Positions 29,253 through 33,958 of a DNA stretch of 64,000 nt are shown here, piece by piece. The first letter of the stretch is position 1; each line of letters opens with the position of its first letter. The stretch spans positions 37,941-101,940 of the IMG/VR virus record IMGVR_UViG_3300046753_000522, one strand, 5' to 3'. The position numbers were made by a program, and so were the translations under genes. The stretch comes from a virus. The notes beneath the pieces are model-generated. The model saw only the letters and a program-made list of their open reading frames with translations. It did no database searches and was not told the origin of the DNA.

Positions 29253-29975
29253 TCAGAAACCCTGTTGGATATCGTCTTTACTGAGAGTTCTTGCTTCCAT
29301 GAATGTCAGGGAAATGTCAGTCTCAGAAAAGTGTGCGGGACCACTTCCGCTTTGCAAGAAAGCAGCATTAGATGGATTGTAGTTTGTCTGGAATGCCTCA
29401 AGGTAGCAGTCTGAGAGTTTAGTCACGATATTGCTTCCACCTGTCTGAAATTGTATCTTGAATTTATTTGGAAACTTATAACCGAGTGCGAGGTCTGCAT
29501 AGGTGATATTGGCAGGGTACATCTCTGTACGAAAATACTTGATAATCTCTGGAACGCTCTGTGCTTCGGATTGACTGGTGGGGATCAATTTAAATGTGAA
29601 CTGAAACTGGCGCAGGTTGACCTGCTTAAACAGAGCACGAGTGTTGGGGTTTGGCGCGTTCAGATTTCTCGCTCTTGCTGCTGCCCCCGCACGTTCACTG
29701 AACTTCGCCACTGCCTGAGAGACTAACTGTTTTGCTGTGTCAGCGAGATTACCCTCGCTTGCTGCTGCATTAGGGTCTGACGTCCCACCCATTGCTGCTC
29801 CAATGGCACCAAGTTGTGCGTTCTCGTATTCTACCTTATCCGCAATTTGTAGACCGACAGGCATATACAAAGTACAAGTATCTCCAAGAGTGCTCGATGA
29901 CTCGGCACCTGTGACAACTGTGAAGTTAATCACTCCTTCATACATATTACGATTTTCGGGGAATACCAGTGCCAT
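29253..29975 (-). CDS. 48: Baseplate tail-tube cap protein, gp48-like
   Basis: The 240-residue protein has NPNTRALFKQVNLRQFQFTF (about residues 108-127), then PEIIKYFRTEMYPANI and YLEAFQTNYNPSNAAFLQ, and ends ISLTFMEARTLSKDDI. I know this pattern from marine T4-like gp48 (tube initiator or cap) proteins, which share the tube-protein fold. An Ala/Gly-rich low-complexity insert lies at about 55-105. It is preceded by a TATAAATA box 35 bp upstream, which also lies in the leader of the opposite-strand gp4 gene. gp54, the other T4 initiator, is an alternative name. Confidence 0.7.
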   Translation of the reverse strand: MALVFPENRNMYEGVINFTVVTGAESSSTLGDTCTLYMPVGLQIADKVEYENAQLGAIGAAMGGTSDPNAAASEGNLADTAKQLVSQAVAKFSERAGAAARARNLNAPNPNTRALFKQVNLRQFQFTFKLIPTSQSEAQSVPEIIKYFRTEMYPANITYADLALGYKFPNKFKIQFQTGGSNIVTKLSDCYLEAFQTNYNPSNAAFLQSGSGPAHFSETDISLTFMEARTLSKDDIQQGF

Positions 29976-30021: not shown

Positions 30022-30525
30022 ATGGCGAACACTTATAAAGGCAAGTATAAAGTCAAGAACCGTGGAAAGTACAACGGCAACGCAGACGATGTTGTGTATC
30101 GTTCAGGTTGGGAGAAGCAGGTGATGATCTTCCTTGACGAGAATACTGCTGTAGAGAAGTGGAACAGCGAGGACTTCAAGGTCCGATACTTCTACGACGT
30201 CGATAAACGATACCATACATACTACGTTGACTTCTGGGTCAAATGGAAGAGTGGTGGAGTTACACTAATCGAAGTCAAACCCAAGAAGCAAACCGAACCG
30301 CCCAAAGTCAAAAACCCCAAATCAAAGCGTGCGCTCAACGAGGCATTCACCTACATTAAGAATCAGAACAAGTGGGAAGCAGCAGAGGCGGTTGCGAAGG
30401 ATAACGGATACAAGTTTGTTATCTGGACCGAGGACGAGTTGAAGGCACAGGGAATACTCAAGAGGCAACCTGGGAAGTTGAAGAAAATGAAACCGCTTCC
30501 AGCATTCAAAAAGAAGAAGCGTTAG
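30022..30525 (+). CDS. 4: Head completion nuclease-like protein gp4
   Basis: This is the only plus-strand gene. The 167-residue protein has the T4 gp4 head-completion pattern, which resembles PD-(D/E)xK nucleases: YRSGWEKQVMIFLDEN (about 27-42), YYVDFWVKWK (Asp in a beta-strand, about 67-76) and VTLIEVKPKKQ (E-x-K, about 80-90). The tail is highly basic. In T4, gp4 (also gp50) acts late in head filling and neck joining. Its last four bases, TTAG, are shared with the stop of the convergent tape-measure gene. No clear Shine-Dalgarno is visible. The ATG is the first after a divergent promoter pair. Confidence 0.85.
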   Translation: MANTYKGKYKVKNRGKYNGNADDVVYRSGWEKQVMIFLDENTAVEKWNSEDFKVRYFYDVDKRYHTYYVDFWVKWKSGGVTLIEVKPKKQTEPPKVKNPKSKRALNEAFTYIKNQNKWEAAEAVAKDNGYKFVIWTEDELKAQGILKRQPGKLKKMKPLPAFKKKKR

Positions 30526-32462
30526 GTTCCTCGATATGCCCCGCGACGGTGAGTACGGTCACTTCTATCAAACGGACCAGGATTCACTCCTGACGTAACA
30601 TTATTCTGAACGATAGACTGCTGCTGGGAATTATCGGCAACGACTACGTTTGAGGCATTATCGTTCGCGATGTTCGTCGCCAGTTGGTCAGCAAGGTCGT
30701 TCTGTCTTGATTCCAACTCTGCACTCTGCGCTGCATTGCCTTCTAAACCGCCAGCGACGGTGGGTTTGCCAGAAAGAACAGCAGTGCCGTCAACCGTGCC
30801 CTGTTGTACAACATCGGGTCCACCAATCTCCATACCACGTTTACTTGGATCTTTACTCGCCCATTCTGCTGCTTCTGCATACGTGTCGAAGAATTTTGTT
30901 CCTGTCTCTAACGGCATTTCTGGGTTTGTCGCCCTAAACTTGCCACTCGAGGGCATGACCATCACATTCGGATTCTCTTGTGCAAGTTCGTAACCAGTTT
31001 TTGCAACTTTCGGTTCGCGAGACATTGCAGCAGGAATAGTCTTTGCTTCCCGTGTCGGTACAGAGATTTCCTGAAGAACTGAAGAAGTCGAGGCATCGTT
31101 GACAACTTCTGGCGTTGCGGGTGCTTCGACTGTTGCGCCCATCTGAGTGTCTAATGCTGCCTTTCGCTTTTCCCGACTGGCGATTTCTTGCAGTACCATC
31201 TTCTCATCTTCGGGCGAGAGGTCATCGTCTTTTACGATAGAGATTAACTGACTCGTCGGTGCTTCCTTGATCATTTCCTTATTGATCTCAGAGTCACCAT
31301 AGATGTTTGAGTCGTACAGTCCGCTGTTCCTTGCTGCCTTCACATTCTCCCGTTGCTCCTTTCTATCCATTGTATAGTCTGCTGCGGTCTTACCCTGCTC
31401 GCGAGTATCCTCGCCAATCATGGGAAGTCCAGGAACGTACTTTGCGATTTTATTATATACTGCTTTGAGTGCCGACATCATTTTGTCGATCGCCCCTGTG
31501 ATATCTTCCCACAGTTGCTTGAAACTCTGACCCACAGGTGATGCTGCGAGCATATCATACGTTTCCTTCAACGACTGACCGAAGTCTTCGAACAGATTGA
31601 AGAATACTTCGACTGCGTACTTTGCTTCCTCTACGATGGACAGTTTCTGCATCCACTCAATACCAAAGAAGTCGCCAATGGCGTGCATAATCCAATCAAG
31701 CGGAGCGAGTAGAGTACCAAGGAATCCAGCAAAGAATCCTTCGAGTGCCGCCATAAACTTGGACTGCATACCGTCACCTGCTTCGTTGAAGTAGTTGAAT
31801 GCTTCTATGAGACCGCCAATCGTTCCGATGACCAGCGTTAGCGGAATTGCTAATTTGCTGAGGGACTTGACCATGTTCTTAAGGACTTCAAAGAATTGCA
31901 TGTTCCGAAATCCGGACAAGAAGGTGAAGATTCTGCTACCCAGATTTGAGAAGAAGTTGCCTATTGCCCTGAATGGTTTTAAGTAAGTGTCTTTGTTTCC
32001 AAGAAACTGTTTGGCGACAATCATTGTTGCAGCGATTTCGCCTGCTGTTTCTATCAACTCTTTTATGGTGTTTCCAAGACCACTAAGTGCCTTTGATCCA
32101 GAAGGACCGCGTTTCAATCCTGACTGGAAAGAATCTTTGACTGACTCTCCGAACCCTTTCTTCTTTCCACTCTGCACCTCACCCTTCTCTTCGCGATCTC
32201 TTTCTTTGTCTTGCTGCTTTTGGTACTCAAGAGCAGCGTCGAAGGAACCAGTGATACCCTCAACGATATCTTGCGAAAACTTTTCGAGGGACTCTTGTAT
32301 GGCAGGTTGCTCTAGCATACGCCCAACCTTTACGTCGATTGCGCTTGCAACACTTTCAATACCGATAAGTGCTTCCAAGTGCATATCAGTTGTGTCGTGT
32401 ATTAACTGATTTATCACTTGGAGTTCGGAGACAACGCCTTGGATGGTTGCTTCTTCTGCCAT
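30522..32462 (-). CDS. Tail tape-measure protein (gp29-like position)
   Basis: The 646-residue protein follows the tube and gp26/gp51 genes, the canonical tape-measure slot. It is helical with a charged coiled-coil N-terminus (LEKFSQDIVEGITGSFDAAL, then KQQDKERDREEKGEVQSGKK), a central hydrophobic region with several potential membrane-spanning helices (IPLTLVIGTIGGLIEAF and FMAALEGFFAGFLGTLLAPL, about residues 205-260), and a disordered C-terminal third with repeated Asn/Gln/Ala. Hydrophobic mid-segments are typical of tape measures that insert into the host inner membrane during DNA delivery. It has its own TATAAATA box 26 bp upstream. Confidence 0.75.
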   Translation of the reverse strand: MAEEATIQGVVSELQVINQLIHDTTDMHLEALIGIESVASAIDVKVGRMLEQPAIQESLEKFSQDIVEGITGSFDAALEYQKQQDKERDREEKGEVQSGKKKGFGESVKDSFQSGLKRGPSGSKALSGLGNTIKELIETAGEIAATMIVAKQFLGNKDTYLKPFRAIGNFFSNLGSRIFTFLSGFRNMQFFEVLKNMVKSLSKLAIPLTLVIGTIGGLIEAFNYFNEAGDGMQSKFMAALEGFFAGFLGTLLAPLDWIMHAIGDFFGIEWMQKLSIVEEAKYAVEVFFNLFEDFGQSLKETYDMLAASPVGQSFKQLWEDITGAIDKMMSALKAVYNKIAKYVPGLPMIGEDTREQGKTAADYTMDRKEQRENVKAARNSGLYDSNIYGDSEINKEMIKEAPTSQLISIVKDDDLSPEDEKMVLQEIASREKRKAALDTQMGATVEAPATPEVVNDASTSSVLQEISVPTREAKTIPAAMSREPKVAKTGYELAQENPNVMVMPSSGKFRATNPEMPLETGTKFFDTYAEAAEWASKDPSKRGMEIGGPDVVQQGTVDGTAVLSGKPTVAGGLEGNAAQSAELESRQNDLADQLATNIANDNASNVVVADNSQQQSIVQNNVTSGVNPGPFDRSDRTHRRGAYRGT

Positions 32463-32495: not shown

Positions 32496-32690
32496 CTATC
32501 GTTGCGATTGTTTAGCGAGTTCCATCCTCTCTTTCTCTTCCTTGATGTACTCGATGAGAAGAGTCACATAGACCTGCCTTTCCCATGGTAACATAGTTTC
32601 TAACTCTGACAAGGAATACTTGTGGTGTTGCATCAGGGCAAAGTTAGTCTTGTAATGGTTTACAAGATTATCATGAGAAAGGCATATCAG
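32496..32690 (-). CDS. 51: gp51-like extension reached by -1 frameshift from gp26
   Basis: The minus-1 frame is open from the gp26 stop to a TAG at 32496-32498, giving 64 codons: LICLSHDNLVNHYKTNFALM, QHHKYSLSELETMLPWERQV and YVTLLIEYIKEEKERMELAK, then QSQR. It has no ATG or GTG near its beginning; the first ATG is codon 20. gp26 ends GAT TTT TTC TGA, so the heptamer T TTT TTC sits right at the stop. A -1 slip there joins gp26 to this peptide. Its position, size and the NHYKTNFALM / YSLSELETMLPWER pattern match the gp51 hub-assembly proteins that follow gene 26 in T4. An 8-bp stem with an ACCA loop lies at 32648-32667, 22 bases after the slip site. Confidence 0.75.
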   Translation of the reverse strand: MICLSHDNLVNHYKTNFALMQHHKYSLSELETMLPWERQVYVTLLIEYIKEEKERMELAKQSQR

Positions 32691-33394
32691 AAAAAATCAG
32701 ATAGACCCTTTAACTCCAGTTCGTTCTTCTCAGTACAGTGCTGACACAGAAACTCCGCTTTATGTTTCAGTGCGGGCATATCCTCGATAAAACTCGTGAT
32801 ATTCTTCAACTGCGCGGCGGTCATAGAAGAAACGAAGTCGAGAATATCCTCCCTGCTCTCATCAGAGCAGTCAATTCTCTCATCGTTCGTATGGATAGCA
32901 ACCATGCAGTTAACGACCACTTCCAGTGCCTTCTCGAATTCGTCGCCTTCCTTTTCTTGCTCGAGCATAACGTCGTACGAGGGATACCGCATCTCTACGC
33001 GAATGTTGTCCGTGACTTCTCGAAGATTTTGTCCAACGGGAACCTCAATCTCTAACTCGTCGAGGTCGATTTGGTATTCATTTTGTTCTTCGCACTTCTT
33101 ACAGTTGATCAAGATCGTCGAGACTTCGCCAACCGACTTCGCGCGTACCTGCGTGAACATGTACTCAACGTCGAAGGTCGCAAGTTTTGCGACATTGATG
33201 CCTTCCCTTGGATCAATGGTTGCGGAAAGAGTATCCGTCATTGCCTGCAAACAAGTTGAGGCATCCTTTGACTCGAATGCTTGAAGTAGAACCTTTTCTT
33301 CTTGGACCAGATATGGTCGATACTTGACTTGCTTTCCCAGTGATGGGATTGTCATGACAAAGTTTAGGTGCTCATTAATTTTTGGTAATGCCAT
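32687..33394 (-). CDS. 26: Baseplate hub/tail assembly chaperone gp26
   Basis: The 235-residue protein matches the T4 gp26 baseplate family: NFVMTIPSLGKQVKYRPYLV, QEEKVLLQAFESKDAS (about 10-46), then FDVEYMFTQVRAKSVGE (about 74-90) and the C-terminal DILDFVSSMTAAQLKNI. Two CxxC pairs (CKKC at about 98, CQHC at about 218) could hold a zinc ion. The gene lies between the tail tube and the tape measure, which is where siphophages keep their frameshifted G/GT chaperones. Its last codons form a perfect slippery heptamer (see 32496-32690), so a minority of product should be a longer gp26-gp51 fusion. Confidence 0.82.
   Translation of the reverse strand: MALPKINEHLNFVMTIPSLGKQVKYRPYLVQEEKVLLQAFESKDASTCLQAMTDTLSATIDPREGINVAKLATFDVEYMFTQVRAKSVGEVSTILINCKKCEEQNEYQIDLDELEIEVPVGQNLREVTDNIRVEMRYPSYDVMLEQEKEGDEFEKALEVVVNCMVAIHTNDERIDCSDESREDILDFVSSMTAAQLKNITSFIEDMPALKHKAEFLCQHCTEKNELELKGLSDFF
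32690..32696 (-). promoter_or_regulatory. -1 programmed frameshift slippery heptamer T TTT TTC
   Basis: The heptamer is read on the minus strand in phase X XXY YYZ with the gp26 frame (GAT TTT TTC TGA). Both tRNAs can re-pair after a one-base backward slip, and the UGA stop directly follows, which usually raises frameshifting. The new frame runs open for 64 codons. Confidence 0.75.
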
Positions 33395-33409: not shown

Positions 33410-33958
33410 TCAACTCGCTTCATAATTTGTGTATTGTAGGGTGACAGTAAACTCCGCTGCTGCTGTTGCTGCCTGATTTGTCAGATCGATTTCACTGACG
33501 TTAACTGGATATGCTTCGGTCAACTTGACCTTGTAAACGGGTGCCTGCAGTTTATCCAACTGTATAATTGTCACCTGCTTTCCATATTCTTGCAGGAAAC
33601 CTGCTGTGTATGGTGCGCCGCTACCGACAACGCATTCCATCCAATCTTGCCAATACTTTCTGGCAGTGTATTTATTCGTGAGATAGAAGGTCAAAGTGAC
33701 AGGGTTGAGTGTCTTACCGATACCAACCTTCTGCGGGACCATACCGATCTGTCGGTCAATAGTCACCACATCAACTCCAGGCATCTTGACAGAGGTGCAG
33801 ACCAGATTCAAATCGGAAGTGGTATAACTGCCTGCACTACCGCCTCCAGGTTTTGGTGTTCCGGATATCTGGGGAAGTTCTATCTTCCAACGAGACTCGG
33901 ACGCGACTCCGTTCTCGGTGTTTAGAAATGACCGGAGGTCATCCGTCTTAAATGTCAC
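33410..33958 (-). CDS. 19: Tail tube protein gp19
   Basis: The 182-residue protein is of the gp19/T4-tube type: SRWKIELPQISG (about 22-33), NLVCTSVKMPGVDVVTIDRQ and IGMVPQKVGIGKTLNPVTLTF (about 50-91), KYWQDWMECVVG, then VYKVKLTEAYPVNVSEIDLT and EFTVTLQYTNYE at the end. The size equals T4 gp19 (163 residues). It is followed by gp26 and the tape measure. If a second tube gene exists elsewhere in the genome beside the sheath gene, this could be a paralogue. Confidence 0.78.
   Translation of the reverse strand: MTFKTDDLRSFLNTENGVASESRWKIELPQISGTPKPGGGSAGSYTTSDLNLVCTSVKMPGVDVVTIDRQIGMVPQKVGIGKTLNPVTLTFYLTNKYTARKYWQDWMECVVGSGAPYTAGFLQEYGKQVTIIQLDKLQAPVYKVKLTEAYPVNVSEIDLTNQAATAAAEFTVTLQYTNYEAS

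Follow-up and report, generated by a model that had tools for sequence, protein, structure and literature searches.

A conserved -1 frameshift site very probably joins gp26 and gp51 into one tail assembly chaperone gene in T4-like phages

Introduction

For T4, PMC3004832 lists gp26 and gp51 as chaperones of hub assembly. Frameshifting in the G-T arrangement was described by Atkins et al. in 2016 as widespread 'except T4' (PMC5009743). As early as 2010, it was noted that gp51 of cyanophages and marine vibriophage 'lacks' about 200 N-terminal residues of T4 gp51 (PMC3037559). Vladimirov, Gautam and Davidson reportedly identified the tail assembly chaperone genes of T4-like phages (Virology 2022, doi 10.1016/j.virol.2021.11.003). 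In the summary given by PMC10885494, some T4-like phages have a short gene and a long, fused one. PMC12846349 refers to the same work for slippery poly-T sequences in the TAC-N genes of T4-like phages.

The core of the present finding, a frameshifted chaperone gene in T4-like phages, is probably already known in principle. By its title, the 2022 study suggests a mechanism other than frameshifting. Our study adds the near-universal conservation of the site in marine and other T4-like phages, a Shine-Dalgarno-like element, an argument from start codons, and the split between phages with one gene and phages with two.

Results

Anatomy of the locus

The window, i.e., the whole stretch of 64,000 nucleotides analysed, is part of a viral record of 101,940 bases and belongs to a marine T4-like phage. 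The features under study are collected in Table 1. The gene order gp2, tube, gp26, gp51 is common to the window and phage C48C1.

Table 1. Features of the gp26/gp51 locus in the window.
Feature	Position	Strand	Evidence and remarks
Tail tube family protein, directly upstream	33410..33958	-	PF06841 E 9.8e-7, phrog_45 E 2.8e-32
gp26 in the 0 frame: TAC-N-like short form of 235 aa with two CxxC motifs	32687..33394	-	PF12322, phrog_150, AlphaFold2
Shine-Dalgarno-like stretch TTAAAGGGT, core AAAGGG; probable 5' stimulator	32705..32713	-	last G to heptamer, 9 nt
Slippery heptamer T TTT TTC	32690..32696	-	X XXY YYZ phase; TGA stop immediately 3'
-1 frame extension (so-called gp51), C-terminal part of long form	32496..32690	-	64 codons and stop
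8-bp stem with ACCA loop; function doubtful	32648..32667	-	-6.7 kcal/mol; 22 nt 3' of heptamer; within codons for LVNHYKT
646-aa candidate tape measure protein, directly downstream	30522..32462	-	phrog_4200 E 0.007 and position

In profile searches, the short form was recognised by PF12322 with an E-value of 3.7e-55 (187.4 bits, cut-off 24.5) and by phrog_150 with 3e-54 over columns 5-232. Its C-terminus KGLSDFF ends on the minus strand as GAT TTT TTC TGA. The original prediction had placed the heptamer in phase against the gp26 stop, and it is indeed found there, read from 32696 to 32690. Translation of the -1 frame from the slip gives LICLSHDNLVNHYKTNFALMQHHKYSLSELETMLPWERQVYVTLLIEYIKEEKERMELAKQSQR, with a stop codon ending at 32496. 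This frame is open for 64 codons and has no nearby start, as had been proposed: the first ATG is codon 20 past the slip (window position 32633), and no ATG, GTG or TTG was found ahead of it, back to the upstream -1 stop. The -1 peptide matches phrog_634, the 'baseplate hub assembly catalyst' gp51 family (E 4.9e-27). A second match is to columns 236-278, at the C-terminal end of phrog_150 (E 1.1e-5), so the gp26 profile itself already includes long members.

For the neighbourhood, the order tube, gp26/gp51, tape measure had been assumed. The tube gene upstream is identified by two profiles. Downstream, the tape measure label goes back to the position of the gene and to the sole functional match of its product, the weak tail length tape measure profile phrog_4200. 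The 646-aa protein is likely the client of the chaperone and a candidate tape measure protein. An ORF for a tail tube cap protein (gp48-like, 29253..29975, minus strand) aligns to phrog_230 over its C-terminal half alone (338-585 of 628) and is thus shorter than the family model.

Slippery heptamers of the types scanned occur about 225 times on both strands of the window. The site alone is therefore weak evidence, and it is its conservation that lifts it above chance.

Conservation of the slippery site across relatives

Matches to gp26 were found in 617 phage records and tblastn matches to the -1 peptide in 585, the latter including gp51 of phiAS4 and of IME13. We read the junction in the Kyanoviridae S-SM1, P-SSM4, P-SSM7, S-SSM4, ACG-2014b, S-WAM1, S-CRM01, C48C1, and Mosig, as well as in KVP40, Rhizobium phage RHph_Y68, Sinorhizobium phage phiM9, and Xanthomonas phage X1. 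All reference phages read carry T TTT TT[C/T/G] in phase, followed by a gp51 peptide in the -1 frame. When IMG/VR loci are included, 245 of 248 related loci hold an in-phase T TTT TTN at the end of gp26. Since the first large set had been picked by a fused alignment of both frames, which might have introduced selection bias, the search was repeated with 0-frame gp26 alone and gave the same result. A profile over all groups (A2) held too little conservation for scanning. Thinning to less than 85% nucleotide identity resulted in 164 loci.

Constraint on the site is visible at the synonymous level. The codon preceding the slip ends in T in every one of the 164 loci, though the encoded residue may be Asp, Ser, Asn, Ala or Gly. 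Judged from how these genes use their codons, this has a probability of 10^-34.6, a figure that overstates independence because the loci are related. The first Phe codon is likewise always TTT (164/164; 10^-24.8 from codon usage, with the same overstatement for related loci). Elsewhere in the same gp26 genes, T6 in this phase occupies 14 of 32,800 codon positions (0.04%).

These numbers bear on the view that TTTTTTC merely follows from a required Asp/Ser-Phe-Phe, the -1 frame being a degraded remnant. Some non-shifting proteins of the T4 type do have Phe near the same spot, as T4 gp26 with its terminal KEFFELL, but T4 gp26 has no heptamer there. A requirement of the protein leaves the synonymous choice NNT TTT free, whereas it is fixed far beyond codon usage, and in every locus the supposed remnant is open and shows selection at the protein level. 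We give this view almost no credence.

Slippage of the transcribing polymerase on the T run, rather than of the ribosome, would also change the frame. It is conceivable at runs of eight T, which are found in 35 loci, and 48 of the 164 loci have runs of seven or eight. However, the run is exactly six T long, followed by another base, in 116 of 164, and six T is short for RNA polymerase slippage. Moreover, the codon phase is strict and a Shine-Dalgarno-like element lies at the distance suited to a ribosome (see below), both of which fit ribosomal slippage. Because 116 sites have just six T, we consider a transcriptional origin of the frame change exceedingly improbable.

The 0-frame stop follows the heptamer within 0-1 codons in 158 of 164 loci, which is tighter than slipping alone seems to require.

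All three exceptions to T TTT TTN belong to one distant virus, represented by near-identical sequence in three contigs (L260, L261, and L262; around L261:2169). Its gp26 counterpart, a distant homologue by phrog_150 (E 2.5e-15), has GAC TTT TTT TGG at its end, and the gp51-like continuation lies in the +1 frame. The sequence suggests a +1 (or -2) shift on the T7 run in this virus.

The -1 frame as an extension of gp26

All 161 complete loci have an open -1 frame, 56-69 codons long. Substitutions in its codons 2-8 are distributed over the three codon positions in shares of 0.27/0.22/0.51, and the third-position bias holds from the slip onward. Among the residues following the slip, H6 is kept in 82 of 88 loci and L/I9 in 88 of 88. 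Of the 164 loci, 79 offer no possible start anywhere from the upstream -1 stop to codon 8; as the residues are nevertheless conserved, the beginning of the peptide can be made in these loci only by entry from gp26.

This has to be weighed against gp51 as a separate short gene that initiates from a start codon of its own, coupled to the gp26 stop or located at the ATG of codon 20. Public records annotate it so, and stop/start overlaps of the type TAATG or TGATG do exist, in 7 of 164 loci, all of which keep the heptamer. An ATG at the NFALM position (codon 20) is present in 110 of 159 loci, yet it is absent from the other 49 and its Shine-Dalgarno pairing is poor (mean -0.7 kcal/mol, 4.5% strong). 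A separate gene would further leave unexplained the constraint on T TTT TT and the in-frame long gp51 of the T4 type (see below). An own start for gp51 was consequently rejected on the counts of start codons, Shine-Dalgarno pairing and conservation, and we regard it as very unlikely. The combination of an intact gp51 start with a missing heptamer was found in none of the frameshift-type phages.

In sum, the heptamer, its phase, synonymous constraint, the upstream element, the missing start and residue conservation, compared over more than 160 divergent loci, support the -1 frameshift that had been predicted and its parallel to lambda G/GT.

Stimulators around the site

In 76 of 88 loci, a Shine-Dalgarno-like core (GGAGG, GAGGG, AAGGG) begins 12-13 nt ahead of the heptamer. 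Over the 164 loci, mean pairing of this region with the 16S tail amounts to -6.73 kcal/mol; synonymous recodings average -5.46 (sd 0.11), and the observed value is stronger than in all 300 sets. Other parts of the same genes average -2.47 kcal/mol. For TTAAAGGGT of the window, the duplex energy is -5.9 kcal/mol. In dnaX, a Shine-Dalgarno-like element in such an arrangement stimulates -1 shifting, and this dnaX-type feature, placed about 10 nt 5' of the heptamer, is present here.

Downstream of the heptamer, RNA stability averages slightly above that of shuffled sequences (z -1.2 at +15), and no stem common to the loci was found there. The 8-bp ACCA stem noted in the original prediction is real and lies at the distance given. 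Among the relatives inspected, it occurs only in the window and in its close relatives L004 and L017; in view of this and of the long spacing of 22 nt, it is probably not a stimulator.

Paralogy with gp26 and gp51 of T4

A single PF12322 copy is present in 14 of 14 frameshift-type records, while each of five T4-type records has two. The T4-type gp26 spans phrog_150 columns 17-235, and the T4-type gp51 spans columns 13-282 plus phrog_634, with no slippery site found at its junction. T4 gp26 and gp51 had been taken as adjacent hub genes. Judged from these profile matches, they are not simply that: they are duplicates of one gene, and the T4-type gp51 already holds a gp26-like part. The T4-type gp26 equals the short form and the T4-type gp51 an in-frame long form, so the "gp51" of the window corresponds to the C-terminal part of the long form. 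The frameshift reading is strengthened by this, since phages of the T4 type lack the heptamer but have gp51 as a full-length paralogue. The residues missing from cyanophage and vibriophage gp51 would likewise be those of the upstream gp26, joined by frameshifting.

In the predicted folds of the window gp26 and of a T4-type gp51, strands and helices follow each other in nearly the same order; after these, at the place of the putative -1 extension, the gp51 model adds three helices. In a tree that is unrooted and has several long branches, T4-type gp26 and gp51 form one group with support of 92/93. A single duplication from a one-gene ancestor is accordingly the simplest history that the sequences suggest for the T4-type pair.

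The two T4-type genes (L097, L011, L101, and L102) are divergent in three of four phages, and co-directional and overlapping in Klebsiella phage KP27.

Structure and function

The AlphaFold2 model of the window gp26 has a pLDDT of 92.7. Among solved structures, the HK97 tail assembly chaperone (2OB9) is its Foldseek match of highest probability, with a weak E-value: the two matches have probabilities of 0.80 and 0.66 and E-values of 0.2 and 1.1 (ranks 2 and 6 by E-value), respectively, and cover about 90 of 235 residues with a target TM of 0.40-0.47. The PDB sequence search gave no match, comparison of the gp51-type model with solved structures gave nothing meaningful, and NCBIfam holds no model for gp26/gp51 proteins. 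In phage AM101, both gp26 and gp51 are named 'tape measure protein assembly chaperone'.

Public annotation

None of 13 annotated frameshift-type records examined has a joined CDS for gp26 and gp51. The assumption that the arrangement is little annotated thus holds, whereas the idea itself is not new, given the study by Vladimirov et al. The annotated gp51 is missing, truncated, or begins at varying start codons. Such faults behind gp26 were seen in L007, L008, L009, L001, L015, L016, L002, and L100. In S-WAM1 (L007), gp26 is also annotated with a late start, at 917, with an open ATG at 803. The frameshift reading suggests that hundreds of public T4-like records would have a missing or truncated gp51. 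The long-noted, seemingly cut-off "gp51" genes of cyanophages would be accounted for by joining through frameshifting.

Discussion

Very probably, gp26 and the -1 frame that follows it constitute one tail assembly chaperone gene, from which a short and a long form are produced by a -1 slip. Most ribosomes would terminate at the TGA and release the short form of 235 aa. A minority would slip back one base on T TTT TTC and continue to the long form of 235 + 64 = 299 aa; the slipping ribosomes would probably be paused by the upstream Shine-Dalgarno-like element, with tRNA-Phe on T TTT TTC. The comparison shows the anatomy of the locus, its conservation, the constraint on the site and the paralogy; slippage in the cell and its rate, the chaperone function in this phage and the tasks of both forms are inferred. 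By analogy with lambda gpG/gpGT, the tape measure protein may be coated by many short and few long forms, with tail tube subunits recruited through the helical, gp51-like tail. In T4, the same two products come from duplicated genes, gp26 (short) and gp51 (long).

On an evolutionary scale, a single frameshifted gene, with fixed slippery site and Shine-Dalgarno-like stimulator, could be ancestral in T4-like phages, as retained in cyano-, pelagi-, vibrio-, rhizobium- and Xanthomonas phages. The T4 lineage would have swapped recoding for the gp26/gp51 duplication, and one distant virus would have switched to +1 shifting at a run of seven T. We are evenly divided between accepting and rejecting this scenario.

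Compared with known systems, T4 gp26/gp51 is of the same family as the window gene (PF12322, phrog_150/phrog_634) and has the same short and long forms. In contrast to the single gene with a -1 site in the window, T4 has two separate genes with no slippery site. One recoded gene and two duplicated genes form a natural pair for asking why both chaperone forms are needed, and in what ratio. For HK97 gp13 (2OB9), the resemblance is one of part of the predicted gp26 fold and not of sequence in the PDB search. P2 E/E+E' and the TAC of Vandenendeviridae are also myovirus tail chaperone genes with a -1 shift, likened here by description and not by sequence; the GTTTTT site of the latter is, as in the window, a T run (PMC12846349). 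With lambda gpG/gpGT, the window gene would share a -1 shift close to where the first frame stops, a location behind the tube gene and before what may be the tape measure gene, and a short and a long chaperone. It differs from lambda in its heptamer, T TTT TTC, in the Shine-Dalgarno-like 5' element, and in a longer N part with CxxC motifs.
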